Part shown: positions 1,136 through 32,545 of the stretch, in pieces | Numbering within the stretch: position 1 is the stretch's first letter | Layout: each line of letters starts with the position of its first letter | IMG/VR virus record: IMGVR_UViG_3300006736_000040 | Span: 1 to 32,895 of that record | From: a virus | Reading direction: 5' to 3' (one strand) | Length of the DNA: 32,895 bases | Notes under the pieces: generated by a model | What the model saw: the letters and a program-made list of their open reading frames with translations, nothing else | Told to the model about the DNA's origin: nothing | Database searches by the model: none | Translations under genes and position numbers: made by a program

Positions 1136-4100
1136 TTAATCTCTCTTACGCCTACGTCTACGACGTTTGCGTCTCCTTCTGCTTCTTGATGAAGATCCGC
1201 CACTAGAAAGAGTTGGACCCATAACCTGTTTAGATAACGGAAGCGTTTGACTAAGAAGCCTTAGCCACGCATTATCCTTGTCACTTAATAAAGCATCACC
1301 AAAAGCAGAAGCATCGCCACCTATTGGTCCTAATATCTCCCCAAAAATTCGACTTTGCGTCGAATCCCACCACCCTCTCTTATATGGGAAGGTAAGGTTT
1401 ACCAAAGCCGTACCTGGAGCAGAAAGTAAACCGGTTCTATCTAATCGGCGTACAAATTGTTTATAATCTCCAGGTATCACTTCCAGATCTTCGTCATCTA
1501 GATCACCACGTATCACGCCTCTTAAGATTTCGGCAAACATTACAGCACCATACATAGTCATAGCTGTGGCTGCTACACGGCCTACCTGTTTCGCCCGCTC
1601 TACGTTATCAACCTTAGTAGCCATATCATTACCAATAGCAGTCATCAATGTATTACCGAACGTGGTAATAAAACGCTTGAATAAGACTAGTGGGGCTATC
1701 AACGGATTCTTAAACGCCTTAGCCGTAGTCGCGTCATTAGGTCGAGTAATAACTTGGTCTATAAAACGTAAAGCACCAGCATTGAAAGCAGCTTGTCCAC
1801 TAGCAGTACTAAGATCTATATCCTCTGTAATGCCATAATCTAAAAGATCTTGTTTAAATTGCTTATACAATCTGGCGCGACGGCCACTTAAGCTTTTGCC
1901 CGAATGTTTCTGAACAAATTTGATTCTGCGCCCTGTATGTCTTTGAAAATTTCTCAACGCCATCAACTGTTGCATCTCTGTCATTGTAACAAGCATCGTA
2001 GCTTGCATAAAGACTTGCATATTGAACACAGCGCGCACACGCTTAGGAATCTTACCCGTAATACCTCCCCTCGCACCGGCTCGCAAACCACCTCGCGCGA
2101 AATTAGGATTAGAATACCTTGTAGCAACTAAATCACCCATAGCTTGAATATCAGCTATACCCAACTCACGTAATAGTTGTATGTCACTAATGATACCTGC
2201 CCCGCCGATATCCTTTGAATACTTGCGCATCGCAGGTAAGTGCTGGTTAAAGATAAGTTTAGATAATCCATTAGCAGCTTTATACCCAGCCCAGGCTGTA
2301 CCTGCCATGAAGTCCATAAACCAATGATGTGGCGAGACATCTCCTCGCAGCATAGGCGTGAAGAATTCAGGCATAGATGCAAGAGTTACCAATGGTAGTT
2401 TGAATAAAACCTGCGTGTTGCTGATACGCTGCAGCCACTTCCTTGTCGCCATATTGGCCACATCATAACCATATTGGTTACGTAGTATTCTAGCCATATC
2501 CCACACAGCTTTCTCAAAGCGCTTTTCGCTCATCCACGGCATAGGACTATCAGTTTTCTTAAGCTTCAATACCTCCTTATTGTGAGCGCGTATCTGTGCT
2601 ACGCCCTCTTTTATCATAGCTCTCAACAATTCATCATTACTACCAAAGCGCTTCGAATATTCCGTGCGCTCTACAGCTTTTTGAACAAACCTAGGCATTA
2701 ACGCTTGTAAATCATCAAGCACCAACCTCTCATCCATCAGTGCTTCAGTAGGTAACGAATCTAAATACTCTTGGATTAAATTATCCTTTTTGATATCTTC
2801 TTCACTTCTTAATTGATCTGCTACAATATTAGTCCAATCGCCCTGTACGAAGCCACCACTATTTATAACTGCATTATACAGATCTTCAACTGTTATACCA
2901 GCTTCTTCAAAAATAGTACTCTTACCACCATGCGGCGTGAACACGCTAGAAATTGCTCTCAGAAATTTAGCTTTACCTTGGCGGGTTGCTAGATATTCAA
3001 TATTCCATACACGTGGCACATGTGTATCACCGGCACCACGTAAGTTAAGTGGCTTCTTAAGGCCTGCCGTTTCCTCCGCTGCGTAAGTATCTATACGTGT
3101 TATTAAAGTCTTTAATTCTTTTGCGGCACTTTCAATCTTTTTACTAGAGAATGTAACCGGCCTATCTATTAAGTAATCAATAATTTCACGATTAGTAGCA
3201 TCGTCTATTACACCATCACGTCCTGTAACGCGAGCAAATATCTTGGATAATGTCGAATAAAATTCACCAGAACGCATGGAGACGTCTTGAACGAGATCAG
3301 AACCCGTCTCTAAACCTCCCGCCCTTCTTCCAGATACATGTGCTCGCTGTATAAGGTCGGCGATTTGATCTGCTGCCGTTATATTACCTTGTGATGTGCC
3401 AAACCTGGTTACCTTATTAAAATCACGTATAGCTTGTACTGGCTTGCCCCATAAGAAGCTAGTTATGTTATACCAAAAACCATCGTTGAAATGTTCTGTA
3501 TAATCTCTTTCTTTGGGTGGTTTACGTAAGCGTTCCAAATTATAGGTTTCGAATACAACCTTTTCCCAATCTTCTAACTTTGCCCCTTGTGGAATAAATG
3601 GAAGCTCTTCACCGTCTTTCTTGGCCCGCTCAACCTGTGGGTGTACATAACCATATGCGGTTAGTATACGAGGTATACCCGCTAACTGCTTCATTGCAGC
3701 CGGCGCTATTTCTGGTTCTGGAAAGGGCTTGATACGTTTTGCGATATCTTCTATACTTTCGCTAGGGGTCCACGCACCAGAAGCTTTCAAAGCCTCTAAG
3801 TATATCTGCGTAGTAGACTTCTTGGAATCTTCTGCATGCTTCTTTAAGTATTTAGTAAATTTTTGTATCTGTTTATTTTCAGAATCATGTATAGAGCGAT
3901 CCTTTAAGGATTCATTCCAACTCTTTGGCAACGGAAACATATTCCACGCGAAGTCTAACCCATACCCACGCAAGGGAACCATATGATCTGCGGAATGTTG
4001 TATACCCGTTTCTTTAGATAATTGAGGAATGATAACCTTTTCTATGACTCTCTTTATTTTTTCGTCTTTTGCTTTTCTATCACTGTTTATCCTTAAGGCC

Positions 4101-7100
4101 CGCCACTCCTTACTTATGTTAATTATAGATTCTCTTTGATAACGCCAAGCGTCTGTAGGACGTACCTTCGTTAACTCTGCAAAGTCGTTTAGAGATGTCC
4201 AATATGTTATACCCTTGTACTTTACAGGTACTAATTGCACACCACCTGTCATCAACACTCCACCCTCTGGATCTAAGTCGCTTTGATACAGTTCCTCTTT
4301 CTTCCTCTCCAAGATACCTTCAGGGGTTTCTACGGCATTACCATCTTCGTCTGTCAATTGATACCACGAAGGATCTATCGCTTCACCCTGTGAGTCGTAT
4401 TCAACGCCAGCTATCTCTGTAGTATCTTCTACATCATCTGATAACATACGATTCATACGAGCAACTTCCCAATTTTCTACTCTACTCTTGCTCTCTTTAT
4501 AACGCGTAATGGGCCCAGGAGCTAACCGTGTATATCGACCTTCTTTCTTAAGCTCTTCTATTAACGCTTCTGGATCAGCGGGTTTAGATTCCGTGTAAGT
4601 TTCTTTTTTGGCCAACTTTTCCCTAAACCTTGCAAGTTCAGCGCGTTCGGATTCATTCTTAAATTCTGCAGGTGCACGAAGGAAAAGTAATCTTGCTCTT
4701 TTGCCTTTCAACGAGGGCGTAGCGCCGCTTTCAACCCACAGGAGTTCATCTGCAGTCGGTGGAGCTTTCAATAAAGCTTGCTTTTGCTTATTGGTTATAT
4801 CAGTAGCATCGTAACGCGTGCGCGTAGCCTCAGCCTGCGCTACCTCAGCCCGCTCGCCCATGTCTGTCGCTTGTTCTTCAGTATAAACCTCTGCCCAAGG
4901 CACAAGATCTTCATAAGCTCCAATACCATAGACAGCTTCTGTGATAGTCCTCTTCACAGTTGGTCCAGCCTTACCTTGGAATATGCGTCTAACGTTATTT
5001 ACCGCTAAACGGCGAATCTCTGCCTCCTCGGGGGTAATATCGCCAGCCTTCTCCAACCTGTTGATTTCTTCTTGAGCAAAAGGATACGTCATCTTCCCTT
5101 CCATAGGATGCTTAGCGCCCTTGGGTCGATACTTAAGTATCTCTGCGTCTGTCTTACCTATCCTTCTGGCCCGTTGGTCACGACGCGCTTCTGCTTTTCG
5201 CACGCGCTCCTTAGTTCCTGTCATTTGCGCAGCGAATGGAGCGATAAACTTTTCAACCGCTTCTAAATTACCGTCAAGAATATTTTGTGATTGTTCTACA
5301 AAAACATCAAAATCACCTGCGTCTATACCACGCTTCCTAGCTGCCTTACCCATCACAGCACGAAGACGCGCGGCTAAATCCAATAGGGCAACTTTCTCAG
5401 ATTCGGATATATCCATAGCTGCGATTTCAGGACGTATCTTCTTACTCATCCTGTTACTTATATCGCGAACTACCGTATCTTTCTTGGGCATTCTTGCTCT
5501 TGATTCTAATATGCCCGGCTCTTCTAAAGCTTCAATACGTTGATTTACACCATCCCAAAGTTCTTCTCTTGTAAAGGGTGTATTGGCAGCATAAGAAGTT
5601 ATGCGATAATCCAGTGTACCGTCTTGTGCGGCTTCAGCAGCAGTAGCATCCTCATCATAGATATTCATGATCTCATCTATGGTGTCTACATATAATTCTG
5701 CATCTGTTTTTTCTGTGGTTTCTTTAGGCGCAGGCAATGCTTTCTGTGTAGGCCTTTCTATAGCAAGTGCTTTGGGCTCTGGTAGTCGCGGGGTTTCTCG
5801 TTCTGGTAAGCGTGGAGTTGTAGGTTCATCAAAGTAATCATATGCAGGACCGCGTTGGGTTGTAAGCTCCACTGCAGGACGACGCCATGTCTGTTGAGTG
5901 ATAGCCCTGTCTGGCACTCTTACAGTACCCTCTTCTACCATTTGCGCGAAGGATTCCCTCTGCCCAGACTCCATCTTCCTTTTAAGTTGACCAGCAACCA
6001 TATTTTGTGCTTGTTGCTTGTAACTAGTATTGGCGTCATTAAAAAACGCGTCCATTTCACTTTCGGATAATGGACCACCATCATCACCACCTTCTCCTTC
6101 AGGATCTCTTATAGGATCATGGACACTGTTTACGTTTTTACGACCATACTCATCATTGACATATTGTATTATAAGAGAATCAACATCTTCTTGATTCTCT
6201 GCAATATTAATTGTATCTACAAGTTCTTCTCCCTCATAAACCTCTATCAATTCTTGGTTAGCATCGTAATGAAACGTAACTTCCATTGATCTTTCACCTG
6301 GATCATCAGAACTAGTCCAACCCGCATTAGGATCTACAGCGATATCAAATTTATATATTGTATCTATATCCGGCACAACTACATCAGCTAGCTGTTGCAC
6401 AAATGGATCACCTGGAACTAAACGCGTTGCAGGCTCTAGTATCATTCTAGGATCTGCTGCAATACCAGCAGCTGCGCCACCAACCTGCTTCAGAAACTTC
6501 CTGCGACTTGGATCTTTTGGTCCACGTGATTCCAAAACGGCACCACTTAGTTCGTCCAACCACACCTCATAATTAAGATCCCATTCGGCCTCTTCAAACG
6601 TGTCAAAATCACCATATTCTCTACGTAGATAAAGTTCATTATCATCCCAATCTTCTTGGATAGATGCCATTCTTTGCTTGCTAAAACGAACTTTTTCATT
6701 AGGAGCCGTAGCACGCTCAACAGCTACTTCTCGCATTCTATCAGGAAACCGTGTTACATTGTCTCGTGATTCTAATATACCTTCCTTATTGATAATAGGT
6801 GCTTGCTTAGTTGTTCCACGCTCTGCCTGTACAGCAGCCTTAGTAATCAAATCATATATTTGACTATTGGAAAAATCTGCTTCGAACCCTAATATTTCCT
6901 TTTTTCTCAAAAAGTTCTTGACATTGGCGATAATAGATTTTGTGATACTAGCATCTATTCCCTTAGCGCGAGCTACACTACTTATAAACTCTGCAGCTAC
7001 GTCTCTATGACCATTTGGCCTCCGTAGATATTCAGCATATTGTGAATTACGTGACAACCATTCGTCTATGTCTTTTCTGCGCTTGTTGTAAAACTGATCT

Positions 7101-8365
7101 AAAAAACCAGCCTTGTCTTGTAAGTTTTCAAGAAATACTTTATGATCTATAGACTCCTCTGCAATTAAATCTCTTACGTATTTTTGTACTTGCTTACGAG
7201 TAGGTTTACCACCTAACTCGCGATAAGCATTTTCAACGATTACATTAGATGTGCCCGTAATTGGATCGTAATAACCTGCAGTCTCTGATGTTGGGCCTCT
7301 CCTACCCTCCAAAGCGGCAGCTAGTTGCGCACCTTCTAATGTATCGAACACTCTTTGTTGGTCAGGATTTATCCCTGTTAAGCGCGCTTGCTCAGCTAAA
7401 GCACTTTGCCTCATATATTCTTGATCCGCTGGCATTGCACCAACTATCTCTTGAGGAACGGCCATAGCGGCTGACGCGCCTCCACCTGCACCCCCTCCTA
7501 TTATCCCAGCCGATGCTATCTCACCAGGCACAAATTCAACCCCACCAGGAGTTCCGTATGTAGAACCCAGTTGTTCCACACCAGTTTGTGCTGCCTCAGT
7601 TCCCAACTCCCCCGCCATACCACCGGCGGTTCTTGTTGCTACTGACCGCAGTGCGCCCTTAGTAGCCGTATTCATGATAGCCCCTAAACCAGCTCTATCT
7701 AAAGCACCTACTGCGCCAGCTGTTAATATAGCTTGAGCCCAATCCGCAGAGTCAGGTTCTACTCTTCCATTAGCTATGGCAAGTTTATTAGCGGTAGGAC
7801 CCGCAACCTGGGATGCAGACCAAAACATAGGACCGAGTATCCCACCAATAATACCACCTATAGCTCGACCTCTAGCACCACCGAACCGTCCAAATCTAGC
7901 CCCTGCGGCCGCGCCAGCTTTCATAGAAGCCATACTACCAGCTATTTGACCCGTCTGTTCAGCAGCAGCTCCTGGTAGATTACTAACAACACCACCAATA
8001 TCTTGTGGCGCCCATTCAGGACCCCAAGATTGAGTGAGTTCCCCAGCAAAAGTTGGAGCATCGGGCTGTGCCCATGATTGCATCGCCTCACCTAGACCGA
8101 CATCGATTCCAGGTATAGCCGCTATAGTCTCACCCATACCCCGCATAGGTGCTTTGATAGCCTCTAATGGGATATCCCAACCACTAGGTTTAGACTGCTG
8201 AAATGCCTGCTGACCCACAGAAGCAATAGGTGCGTACGCCTCAGGTGTTCCTGATTCAGTAAGGTATTGTTGTCGTATATTATTTAGAGCAGCTATATCA
8301 CCGGAAGCTTCTGCGTTTCTAAGAAGGTCGAGATAATAGTTTGAACGCTCCTGGTCTAGAGCCAT
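1136..8365 (-). CDS. Giant virion-associated polyvalent-type protein (2409 aa), probable DNA-ejection/internal virion protein
   Basis: Last gene of the late module and 22% of the window. Visible regions: alanine/glycine-rich N-terminus with a glycine-zipper-like stretch (about 143-180); an AEESIDH segment at 402-408 that could be a decayed metallopeptidase motif; SRRKFLK followed by GGAAAG at 620-634, a perfect twin-arginine consensus but internal; a proline-rich linker (about 840-880); long charged helical regions; an HNH-like block (H1457, D1460-H1461, N1475, N1484); and a C-terminal third (about 1640-2300) with RKWLQRISNTQVLFKLPLVTLASMPE, typical of phage large polyvalent/internal virion proteins. 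The last 17 residues are almost all arginine and lysine. A repeated LESR-type motif (530, 610, 952, 1351) falls near domain borders. The role is inferred: such proteins are packaged and ejected with DNA, as T7 gp16 and N4 vRNAP are. I see no RNA polymerase or lysozyme motif. Start: ATG 6 bases after the upstream stop, weak ribosome site, so coupling is likely. Confidence 0.85.
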   Translation of the reverse strand: MALDQERSNYYLDLLRNAEASGDIAALNNIRQQYLTESGTPEAYAPIASVGQQAFQQSKPSGWDIPLEAIKAPMRGMGETIAAIPGIDVGLGEAMQSWAQPDAPTFAGELTQSWGPEWAPQDIGGVVSNLPGAAAEQTGQIAGSMASMKAGAAAGARFGRFGGARGRAIGGIIGGILGPMFWSASQVAGPTANKLAIANGRVEPDSADWAQAILTAGAVGALDRAGLGAIMNTATKGALRSVATRTAGGMAGELGTEAAQTGVEQLGSTYGTPGGVEFVPGEIASAGIIGGGAGGGASAAMAVPQEIVGAMPADQEYMRQSALAEQARLTGINPDQQRVFDTLEGAQLAAALEGRRGPTSETAGYYDPITGTSNVIVENAYRELGGKPTRKQVQKYVRDLIAEESIDHKVFLENLQDKAGFLDQFYNKRRKDIDEWLSRNSQYAEYLRRPNGHRDVAAEFISSVARAKGIDASITKSIIANVKNFLRKKEILGFEADFSNSQIYDLITKAAVQAERGTTKQAPIINKEGILESRDNVTRFPDRMREVAVERATAPNEKVRFSKQRMASIQEDWDDNELYLRREYGDFDTFEEAEWDLNYEVWLDELSGAVLESRGPKDPSRRKFLKQVGGAAAGIAADPRMILEPATRLVPGDPFVQQLADVVVPDIDTIYKFDIAVDPNAGWTSSDDPGERSMEVTFHYDANQELIEVYEGEELVDTINIAENQEDVDSLIIQYVNDEYGRKNVNSVHDPIRDPEGEGGDDGGPLSESEMDAFFNDANTSYKQQAQNMVAGQLKRKMESGQRESFAQMVEEGTVRVPDRAITQQTWRRPAVELTTQRGPAYDYFDEPTTPRLPERETPRLPEPKALAIERPTQKALPAPKETTEKTDAELYVDTIDEIMNIYDEDATAAEAAQDGTLDYRITSYAANTPFTREELWDGVNQRIEALEEPGILESRARMPKKDTVVRDISNRMSKKIRPEIAAMDISESEKVALLDLAARLRAVMGKAARKRGIDAGDFDVFVEQSQNILDGNLEAVEKFIAPFAAQMTGTKERVRKAEARRDQRARRIGKTDAEILKYRPKGAKHPMEGKMTYPFAQEEINRLEKAGDITPEEAEIRRLAVNNVRRIFQGKAGPTVKRTITEAVYGIGAYEDLVPWAEVYTEEQATDMGERAEVAQAEATRTRYDATDITNKQKQALLKAPPTADELLWVESGATPSLKGKRARLLFLRAPAEFKNESERAELARFREKLAKKETYTESKPADPEALIEELKKEGRYTRLAPGPITRYKESKSRVENWEVARMNRMLSDDVEDTTEIAGVEYDSQGEAIDPSWYQLTDEDGNAVETPEGILERKKEELYQSDLDPEGGVLMTGGVQLVPVKYKGITYWTSLNDFAELTKVRPTDAWRYQRESIINISKEWRALRINSDRKAKDEKIKRVIEKVIIPQLSKETGIQHSADHMVPLRGYGLDFAWNMFPLPKSWNESLKDRSIHDSENKQIQKFTKYLKKHAEDSKKSTTQIYLEALKASGAWTPSESIEDIAKRIKPFPEPEIAPAAMKQLAGIPRILTAYGYVHPQVERAKKDGEELPFIPQGAKLEDWEKVVFETYNLERLRKPPKERDYTEHFNDGFWYNITSFLWGKPVQAIRDFNKVTRFGTSQGNITAADQIADLIQRAHVSGRRAGGLETGSDLVQDVSMRSGEFYSTLSKIFARVTGRDGVIDDATNREIIDYLIDRPVTFSSKKIESAAKELKTLITRIDTYAAEETAGLKKPLNLRGAGDTHVPRVWNIEYLATRQGKAKFLRAISSVFTPHGGKSTIFEEAGITVEDLYNAVINSGGFVQGDWTNIVADQLRSEEDIKKDNLIQEYLDSLPTEALMDERLVLDDLQALMPRFVQKAVERTEYSKRFGSNDELLRAMIKEGVAQIRAHNKEVLKLKKTDSPMPWMSEKRFEKAVWDMARILRNQYGYDVANMATRKWLQRISNTQVLFKLPLVTLASMPEFFTPMLRGDVSPHHWFMDFMAGTAWAGYKAANGLSKLIFNQHLPAMRKYSKDIGGAGIISDIQLLRELGIADIQAMGDLVATRYSNPNFARGGLRAGARGGITGKIPKRVRAVFNMQVFMQATMLVTMTEMQQLMALRNFQRHTGRRIKFVQKHSGKSLSGRRARLYKQFKQDLLDYGITEDIDLSTASGQAAFNAGALRFIDQVITRPNDATTAKAFKNPLIAPLVLFKRFITTFGNTLMTAIGNDMATKVDNVERAKQVGRVAATAMTMYGAVMFAEILRGVIRGDLDDEDLEVIPGDYKQFVRRLDRTGLLSAPGTALVNLTFPYKRGWWDSTQSRIFGEILGPIGGDASAFGDALLSDKDNAWLRLLSQTLPLSKQVMGPTLSSGGSSSRSRRRRKRRRRRRKRD

Positions 8366-31119: not shown

Positions 31120-32388
31120 CTACCCCCACCGCCTGTAACGCGTCCGTGTTCTAGGTGGAGTGATTGGTGAAGGGTTATTCCATGGCATCTTATCCCACCA
31201 ATACGAAGCAGGATTTTCCCAGGTGGCATCATCGTAGTTTCTAGAATCTATGAAGTATTCTGTGAAGTCTTGCATACCTTCTTCGCCAGCTCCTTGACCC
31301 TGCAGCGGTGGTAAACCCTGCATAGCGCGCTGTGCGTTTATGTCTATTAGCTCGTTACCACTGTATTTTTGTGCAGCAAGTCCTTGGCGTTCTGTAAAGC
31401 CGGTGGGATCACCCCAAGCCGCGGTTCCCAAGTCTAATCCAGTCAAAGCCCATGCTGCTGGGTTTAAACCTCTTAAGAACGCTGCTGTCTTCGTATGTCC
31501 TAGATTCCTAACATGCTCAGGTATATTTCTACGTAACCAACCTTCTCGAAAGAAGTTTCCTGCACCACCAACCCCGCTTGGTGTGCCTCTTGGTGTTGTG
31601 CGACTCTCTAACGGCATACCATCGCCGCTTCCAGGGGCAACTCTTGCGCTCGTTGGCACTGCACCACCCACTCCTGCTGGTTTATGACCTCCCCATCGAT
31701 TCCATCGGCTCCATCTACCTCGTGTGCGGTCCATAGGTTCAGGTGGAATTGCTGCATCTACTACCGGTAAAGGTATCCTTGAGTGTCTTCCTCTACCAAA
31801 TGGGACACGACTACTGCGTCTAGCCGATGCTGCTCCTCCTACCCTTGGACCAGGTCGTACTGGTCTAGTAGTATCTACAGTAGGTCTTGTAGTTCCTCTT
31901 ACTACTGCTGGATCTGCTTCAGGTGGAATCCAACCACCGCGAACTGCCTTAGCCTTAGCAGCGTCTAAACCCGCTTCAAGTGCTGGCATTGTCATGCGTG
32001 GTGTAGGTACTTTACCTCGGAGTGGAGATGGTCTTGTCGCTGTTAAAAAACCATGAAGTGTACTATTACTCCTCTCACCATCGAAACCAACAGGTAGTGG
32101 AGCTGATGGCGTTACTACTGGGCTGGCTTGAGTTCCATCTGGTACAGTTGGTGTAGCAACACTTAAACTAGGAGGTTTTACCATTCTAAGGGTTTGTGTA
32201 TCACCCTCATATCCACCAGGGGTATAACCCGTGTACTCACCACCACCTTCATCTAGTGGAGCCTGCCACTGATATTCCATACCCTCGGGCGTGAACATCT
32301 CTTGGAAAGCATTTGGCTTATACGTCGGTTGTCCCTGTCTATATTGATACTCCTGTCGCTTTAGTAAGTCATCGTACCAACTAGCCAT
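31120..32388 (-). CDS. First gene of the late operon: proline/arginine-rich hypothetical virion protein (422 aa)
   Basis: I choose the ATG at 32386-32388 (MASWYDDLLKRQ) because CGAGGAC lies just upstream; a GTG 17 codons earlier (32439) has no ribosome site. The N-terminal part is Tyr/Gln-rich (RQEYQYRQGQPTYKP), followed by a long low-complexity region of Pro, Thr, Gly and Arg (about 80-270, with TPTVPDGTQASPVVTPSAP and RRSSRVPFGRGRHSRIPLP), and a more ordered C-terminal part (FREGWLRRNIPEHVRNLGHTKTAAFLRGLNPAAWALTGLDLGTAAWGDPTGF) with several tryptophans. It may be a head-associated or internal protein; no family recognised. The 185-base leader before it carries a palindrome. Confidence 0.7.
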   Translation of the reverse strand: MASWYDDLLKRQEYQYRQGQPTYKPNAFQEMFTPEGMEYQWQAPLDEGGGEYTGYTPGGYEGDTQTLRMVKPPSLSVATPTVPDGTQASPVVTPSAPLPVGFDGERSNSTLHGFLTATRPSPLRGKVPTPRMTMPALEAGLDAAKAKAVRGGWIPPEADPAVVRGTTRPTVDTTRPVRPGPRVGGAASARRSSRVPFGRGRHSRIPLPVVDAAIPPEPMDRTRGRWSRWNRWGGHKPAGVGGAVPTSARVAPGSGDGMPLESRTTPRGTPSGVGGAGNFFREGWLRRNIPEHVRNLGHTKTAAFLRGLNPAAWALTGLDLGTAAWGDPTGFTERQGLAAQKYSGNELIDINAQRAMQGLPPLQGQGAGEEGMQDFTEYFIDSRNYDDATWENPASYWWDKMPWNNPSPITPPRTRTRYRRWG

Positions 32389-32545
32389 ATATATGTCCTC
32401 GTTTGATAATCCCTCCCCAGGTGCCATATATTCTAACACAGTAATTATAATAACAAAAAAATTTTAGAAAAAAATAAGTTTCAAATAGATAGGTTGTGCG
32501 TCCGGTCGTATCAAGACAGATTACCCCAAAACTACATTAGAAAAG

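Follow-up and report, generated by a model that had tools for sequence, protein, structure and literature searches.

A conserved Tat-type segment behind a repeated boundary motif in a giant polyvalent-type phage protein

Introduction

Large polyvalent proteins, which conjugative elements have as well as phages (Iyer et al. 2017, PMC5512222; the LPD entries of Pfam), are in phages very long, modular proteins of the late region, and the metallopeptidase domains found in them, for which HExxxH is a described variant of the motif, have been proposed to cut these proteins into units with distinct subcellular targets (PMC5512222). The available part of that paper describes no address label for the units once cut and, by term search, mentions neither signal peptide nor periplasm. 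The phage P1 proteins DarA and DdrB are large anti-host proteins that are cut by a protease during assembly, before packaging, and either a prohead protease or a peptidase of their own has been proposed as the cutter (PMC5512222, PMC12810830); no Tat-type signal was found for them in the available parts of these two sources. A further comparator is the group of podovirus internal (ejection) virion proteins of ~1250 aa that lie beside "internal virion protein" genes in the pelagiphages Lederberg, HTVC204P and HTVC034P. Tat signal peptides themselves, as captured by the models TIGR01409 and PF10518, combine S-R-R-x-F-[LMI]-K with an A/G-rich stretch. The literature we searched yielded no internal Tat signal in phage giant proteins or internal virion proteins.

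The window, by which we mean the whole 32.9-kb record of an uncultured marine virus analyzed here, encodes a giant protein of 2409 aa (1136..8365; coordinates are window positions, and all window features named here lie on the minus strand). Like large polyvalent proteins it is a very long, modular, late-region phage protein, and five of its relatives have HExxH or HExxxH in a metallopeptidase-like region, but it differs from them in having no Pfam match, and none was found for its relative L004 either. It contains the same S-R-R-x-F-[LMI]-K and A/G-rich stretch as Tat signal peptides and, if cut at the first of its repeated boundary motifs (site 1), the window family would have an n-region of 6-13 residues; it differs from such peptides in that the segment is internal as encoded, its short h-region is closed by a conserved Asp, and its export is predicted only. 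The pelagiphage proteins of ~1250 aa lack the segment, and no homology between them and the window protein is detectable.

Results

The giant protein and its relatives

The giant open frame shares its strand and block with the terminase, portal, capsid and tail genes, and the window terminase is closest to those of HMO-2011-type marine phages (37% identity). From this gene position and from weak PHROG matches, including phrog_6958 ("virion structural protein", E 4.5e-8), we infer that the giant protein is a virion protein. No TatC is encoded in the window record, as expected for a phage. Eight relatives from uncultured viruses were found in viral contigs (L001, L002, L003-L005, L011, L012 and L014), and a last scan of these contigs with the C-terminal region returned no further one. 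In the bacterial and archaeal genome collection we found no relative of the giant protein, and in cultured phages none except for one distant C-terminal match in Pseudoalteromonas phage Slicky01 (E 4e-5), which lacks the Tat-like segment. The conserved C-terminal domain that follows the fourth boundary site (residues 1624-2409, 1139..3496) is 62-65% identical to that of L005.

A repeated motif at domain boundaries

A short motif recurs at about four domain boundaries of the giant protein. It reads LESR at site 1 (residues 611-614, 6524..6535; relatives have TRFAK or LLSK here) and at site 2 (residues 953-956, 5498..5509; LEAR or TR[FY]AK in relatives), and it is degenerate at site 3 (LERK, residues 1352-1355, 4301..4312; LENR, LESR or TRYAK in relatives) and at site 4 (LERL within NLERLR, residues 1610-1613, 3527..3538; LESR, TR[FY]AK or FFSR in relatives), where the counterparts precede a conserved EHFN domain. 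LESR is expected 0.055 times per protein and is seen three times (residues 531, 611 and 953), in addition to the LERK at residue 1352. The type of motif is lineage-specific at the same boundaries, being LE[SAN]R, TR[FY]AK or x-x-S-K. LE[SAN]R is found at residues 537, 826, 1230 and 1541 of L001 and at 551, 897, 1302 and 1558 of L002, and L003 has LESR at 627, 952 and 1353 with TFFSR at 1660; TR[FY]AK, expected 0.004 times per protein, is found at 707, 982, 1377 and 1735 of L004 and at 766, 1031, 1428 and 1774 of L005; and the boundaries read from the sequence are LLSK, LFSK, LQSK and MMSK in L011 and AASK, VYSK, VFSK and LHSK in L014 and L012. Outside the giant protein these motifs are rare, being nearly absent from the other open reading frames examined. 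The boundary motif would most simply be a protease site: it recurs at corresponding boundaries, which would suit processing sites, and its type switches together at all of them, as if the specificity of one protease had changed.

An extra LESR (residues 531-534, 6764..6775) stands ahead of a small inserted module of ~76 aa, which lies between two LESR copies (6524-6775), contains the boundary-type motif VRFSK (residues 559-563, 6677..6691; RFSD in L003), and is present in the window protein and L003 and absent from L001 and L002; by sequence comparison it is an insertion exactly between boundary motifs. An endonuclease VII-like region (~3821-4015; phrog_1035, E 7e-4) occupies a slot between sites 3 and 4 that varies among the relatives, as would suit an exchangeable cassette. 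Among the main open reading frames LESR otherwise occurs once, at residue 277 in a Pro/Gly-rich stretch of a frame of the structural block (31120-32439; PLESRTTPRG), and no homologues of this frame were found in the partial contigs of the relatives.

A candidate protease

The region just N-terminal to site 1 has HExxH or HExxxH in L003, L004, L005, L011 and L014. Glu takes the place of the first His in the window protein (E403, E404 and H408, with E459; 6956..7213), L001 and L002, giving EExxxH, with the next Glu and a downstream Glu invariant. A fold model of this region is of low confidence and too weak to confirm a zincin, and a structure search gave no fold match. This metallopeptidase-like domain is a possible protease for the boundary sites. 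The three proteins in which the first zinc-ligand His has become Glu all use LESR; L003 and the lineages with TRFAK or xxSK have the domain with this His intact. A prohead protease was also considered as the cutter, and none was recognized in the window; a 377-aa gene ahead of the capsid gene has no PHROG match and a scaffold-like appearance.

Position and model scores of the Tat-like segment

The Tat-like segment, PSRRKFLKQVGGAAAGIAADPRMILEPAT, spans residues 619-647 (6425..6511), and its twin arginines are R621 and R622 (6500..6505). SRRKFLKQVGGAAAG begins at residue 620, and the core reads S620-R621-R622-K623-F624-L625-K626-Q-V-G-G-A-A-A-G (6508-6464). VLESR occupies residues 610-614 (6538-6524), with five residues (GPKDP) between R614 and S620, so that the order is VLESR-GPKDP-SRRKFLKQVGGAAAGIAADPRMILEPAT. 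The sequence-only reading had noted SRRKFLK, an S-R-R-x-F-L-K Tat consensus, within residues 620-634 and VLESR five residues upstream, and we confirm both, with SRRKFLK at residues 620-626; six proteins have the arginine pair and the Phe without variation. Beyond K626 the uncharged stretch is 11 residues long (QVGGAAAGIAA) and is followed by a conserved Asp, and the h-region is accordingly short and marginal in length for a Tat signal; when a looser Tat pattern that includes ten uncharged residues is sought in shuffled sequences, it occurs with P=0.03. As encoded, the signal lies at residue 620 of 2409, and it would be N-terminal only if the protein were cleaved at site 1.

Fragments beginning after site 1 were scored with the NCBIfam Tat-signal model TIGR01409 (cut-off 16.7 bits). 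Four of the six family fragments exceed the cut-off (window, 17.3 bits; L001, 19.0; L002, 19.6; L005, 18.4), L003 lies next to it at 16.6, L004 reaches 12.9, and the L011 and L014 fragments have no match. The full-length window protein scores 12.2 bits, below the cut-off, and a scrambled window segment gives no score. By its motif the segment is Tat-like, and by its h-region it is marginal.

Conservation of the segment

The window protein and the five relatives L001-L005 all retain the arginine pair, the Phe and the A/G-rich stretch. The order is VLESR-GLQDP-SRRRFMKQVGGAVAGAAVDPSILLEPAT in L001, with L002 and L003 similar, TRFAK-GDPIDP-SRRKFMKQVGGAVAGAAVDPS in L005, and TRFAK-GRGKLESP-ERRKFIQQAAGAAAGIAADPR in L004. 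The remaining three relatives depart from it: L011 has a variant segment (LLSK-QSSDRELTDYQK-QRRGILKAGAAVAAAPSLAFEP), L014 is rearranged, keeping the signal-like stretch KKILTGAAVAAVPSLA with the arginine pair displaced upstream, and L012 lacks the segment. The spacer from site 1 to the segment is 6-13 residues in eight proteins, the rearranged L014 included. Over the 29 residues of the segment, pS is 0.35-0.88 and pN is 0.02-0.25 per site among the window protein and L001-L005, so purifying selection acts on the segment; between the window and the relatives that keep it, synonymous differences approach saturation. The arginine pair and the Phe are invariant although their codons vary, whereas both the sequence and the length of the neighboring linkers vary freely. 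Conservation runs on to DP..LEPAT, and the Asp is invariant in six proteins.

A check had been proposed on whether RRxF and the upstream LESR are conserved together, and they do co-occur in the window protein, L001, L002 and L003. Elsewhere the pairing holds for the place and not for the letters, with TRFAK in L004 and L005 and LLSK in L011 at the spot of LESR and the RR segment kept. Homologues without the arginine pair had been named as evidence against the idea: the pair is invariant in L001-L005, but L012 lacks the whole segment and the pair is displaced in L014, and from these two sequences the Tat-like segment is judged not indispensable.

Putative cargo between sites 1 and 2

Residues 615-956, the stretch from site 1 to site 2, are modeled by AlphaFold2, with low confidence, as a small beta-rich domain (residues ~669-749, 6119..6361; local pLDDT ~50-76) and a small helical domain conserved in relatives (residues ~888-948, 5522..5704) around a disordered linker; both are putative cargo. 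In six proteins a small, separate domain follows the segment; L011 and L014 have no beta-rich domain. Structure searches gave no fold match for the fragment from site 1 to site 2, and no cargo function was found.

Recurrence in other giant viral proteins

In viral contigs the DNA pattern for RRxFxKQxG[GA]A matched 14 stretches, four from the window family, six in other giant open reading frames, three in ordinary short N-terminal Tat proteins and one in no sizeable open reading frame. The pattern DPSRRxFxKxxG[GA]A matched seven, all internal in giant open reading frames, four from the window family and three from two unrelated families; most of these are recognized by TIGR01409. Both patterns were built from the signature of the window family and say nothing on the frequency of other internal Tat-like segments.

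The SRRxF[LMI]KQ signature is thus shared with two unrelated giant families. One is a protein of 1683 aa (L026/L029) with DPSRREFMKQTGAALATAA at ~residue 520; L026 carries LPD38 (E 7e-37), as large polyvalent proteins do, and sits in a late gene block. It is homologous over its C-terminal half to the pelagiphage proteins of ~1250 aa, which occupy the corresponding late block, and these cultured homologues adjoin internal-virion-protein genes and lack the segment. No repeated motif is evident just upstream of the segment in L026/L029. By eye, the segment in L026:8570-13618 and L029:2-4591 follows an ADP-ribosyltransferase-like region (VVYHGSS...).

The other family (L028, L030, L033 and L036), for which no cultured relative was found, has segments such as NQSRRKFLKQSGAAVAAAGVPKSLLKGASTLAQA ~20 residues after one repeat of a GG motif (for example YSKGGMIKKG), and the full-length proteins score 18.1-22.0 bits with TIGR01409. 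The arginine pair is at residue 78 of the L028 open frame, where the segment could be nearly N-terminal, and is clearly internal in L030, L033 and L036 (330-463). The repeated motif of this family, GG[LMIST], is unlike that of the window family, and L030 has a cell-wall-hydrolase domain (PF07486, E 3e-7).

Discussion

The best single explanation for position, conservation, co-switching of the motif and recurrence is cleavage at LESR followed by Tat targeting of the released fragment, to which we give a probability of roughly 40%. A short repeated motif, LESR here and a putative protease site, would divide the giant protein into modules, and the segment would be a selectively maintained Tat-type targeting element heading an internal module. 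Cleavage at site 1 would release a fragment whose front carries the arginine pair behind a short n-region of normal type (for example GPKDPSRRKFLKQVGGAAAG or SRGPKDPSRRKFLK...). In the cytoplasm the host Tat system could bind this fragment and take it, together with its small folded domains, to or across the inner membrane. The account presumes a protein that is packaged in the virion and delivered to the cell, cleavage of its motif, and recognition of the fragment by Tat. Counted against this explanation are the internal position of the signal as encoded and its 11 uncharged residues before the conserved Asp, the full-length window score of 12.2 bits, and the failure of TIGR01409 to recognize L011 and L014. 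So are the absence of the segment from L012 and its displaced arginines in L014, the lack of an upstream motif in L026/L029, the loss of the candidate protease His in the window protein, L001 and L002, and a cargo with no function found, no beta domain in L011 and L014, and empty structure searches.

The chief rival, somewhat unlikely in our estimate, is that the module opens with a conserved helix, amphipathic or membrane-seeking, that is Tat-like in motif only and no Tat substrate; its basic RR(K/R)F and A/G-rich stretch would serve in membrane contact, capsid packaging or binding within the giant protein. The short uncharged stretch, closed by an Asp that six proteins share, would suit such a helix, as would conservation that reaches DP..LEPAT, past a typical signal, the helix that AlphaFold2 places over residues 620-634 with low confidence, and the retention in L014 of the hydrophobic part and not of the RR spacing. 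Against a helix of this kind stand an arginine pair and a Phe held invariant with varied codons, and SRRxF[LMI]KQ in two unrelated giant families, with full-length proteins that pass the Tat model. The segment could also be a relic, in which a module was captured from a Tat-exported protein and its signal hitch-hikes without function in the fusion. Modules are clearly exchanged between the relatives, and the segment does stand ahead of a small separate domain in six of the proteins, but the strong purifying selection, the retention of the segment in L011 despite a different following domain, and the recurrence in unrelated giants make this improbable.

More improbable again is an uncut protein that docks as a whole at TatBC or the membrane through an internal RR loop; the degenerate metallopeptidase-like domain of the window protein and cleavage that is only inferred speak for it, yet it leaves unexplained why the segment stands directly behind the boundary motif in three motif lineages. 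An internal translation start before the segment, which would give a separate protein with a Tat signal, was rejected for want of a conserved start codon: the window has TTG 9 codons and GTG 19 codons upstream, but L001, L004 and L005 have no ATG, GTG or TTG within 33 codons upstream, and we regard this reading as very improbable. A chance match in a long and Arg-rich protein is scarcely credible, and was rejected on the expectation in a protein of the same composition (0.0015 per protein for [ST]RRxF[LMIV][KR] and 0.0001 for SRRxFLK) and on the conservation of the segment in relatives.

Beyond the cut and Tat-addressed fragment, we put forward more tentatively that injected giants are polyproteins with internal address labels, in which the repeated motifs would be protease sites and one fragment, with a folded phage domain, would be sent by Tat into the host envelope. 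SignalP-6.0 reads N-termini, and internal signals freed by cleavage would therefore be missed by it. In a Klebsiella screen, tatC mutants were fitter under three phages and SignalP-6.0 found no Tat motif among the phage proteins (PMC13412088), a result that is compatible with hidden internal Tat signals but is no demonstration of them.

An internal Tat-type segment together with a co-switching boundary motif appears to be undescribed in the available part of PMC5512222. Placed behind a boundary motif, such a segment would be an address label of the kind that cut polyvalent-protein units call for, and it makes the idea of cutting and targeting testable; the concerted switching of the motif would let the specificity of the protease be tracked by sequence. 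If the explanation is true, there are phage Tat substrates that are hidden from predictors confined to N-termini.
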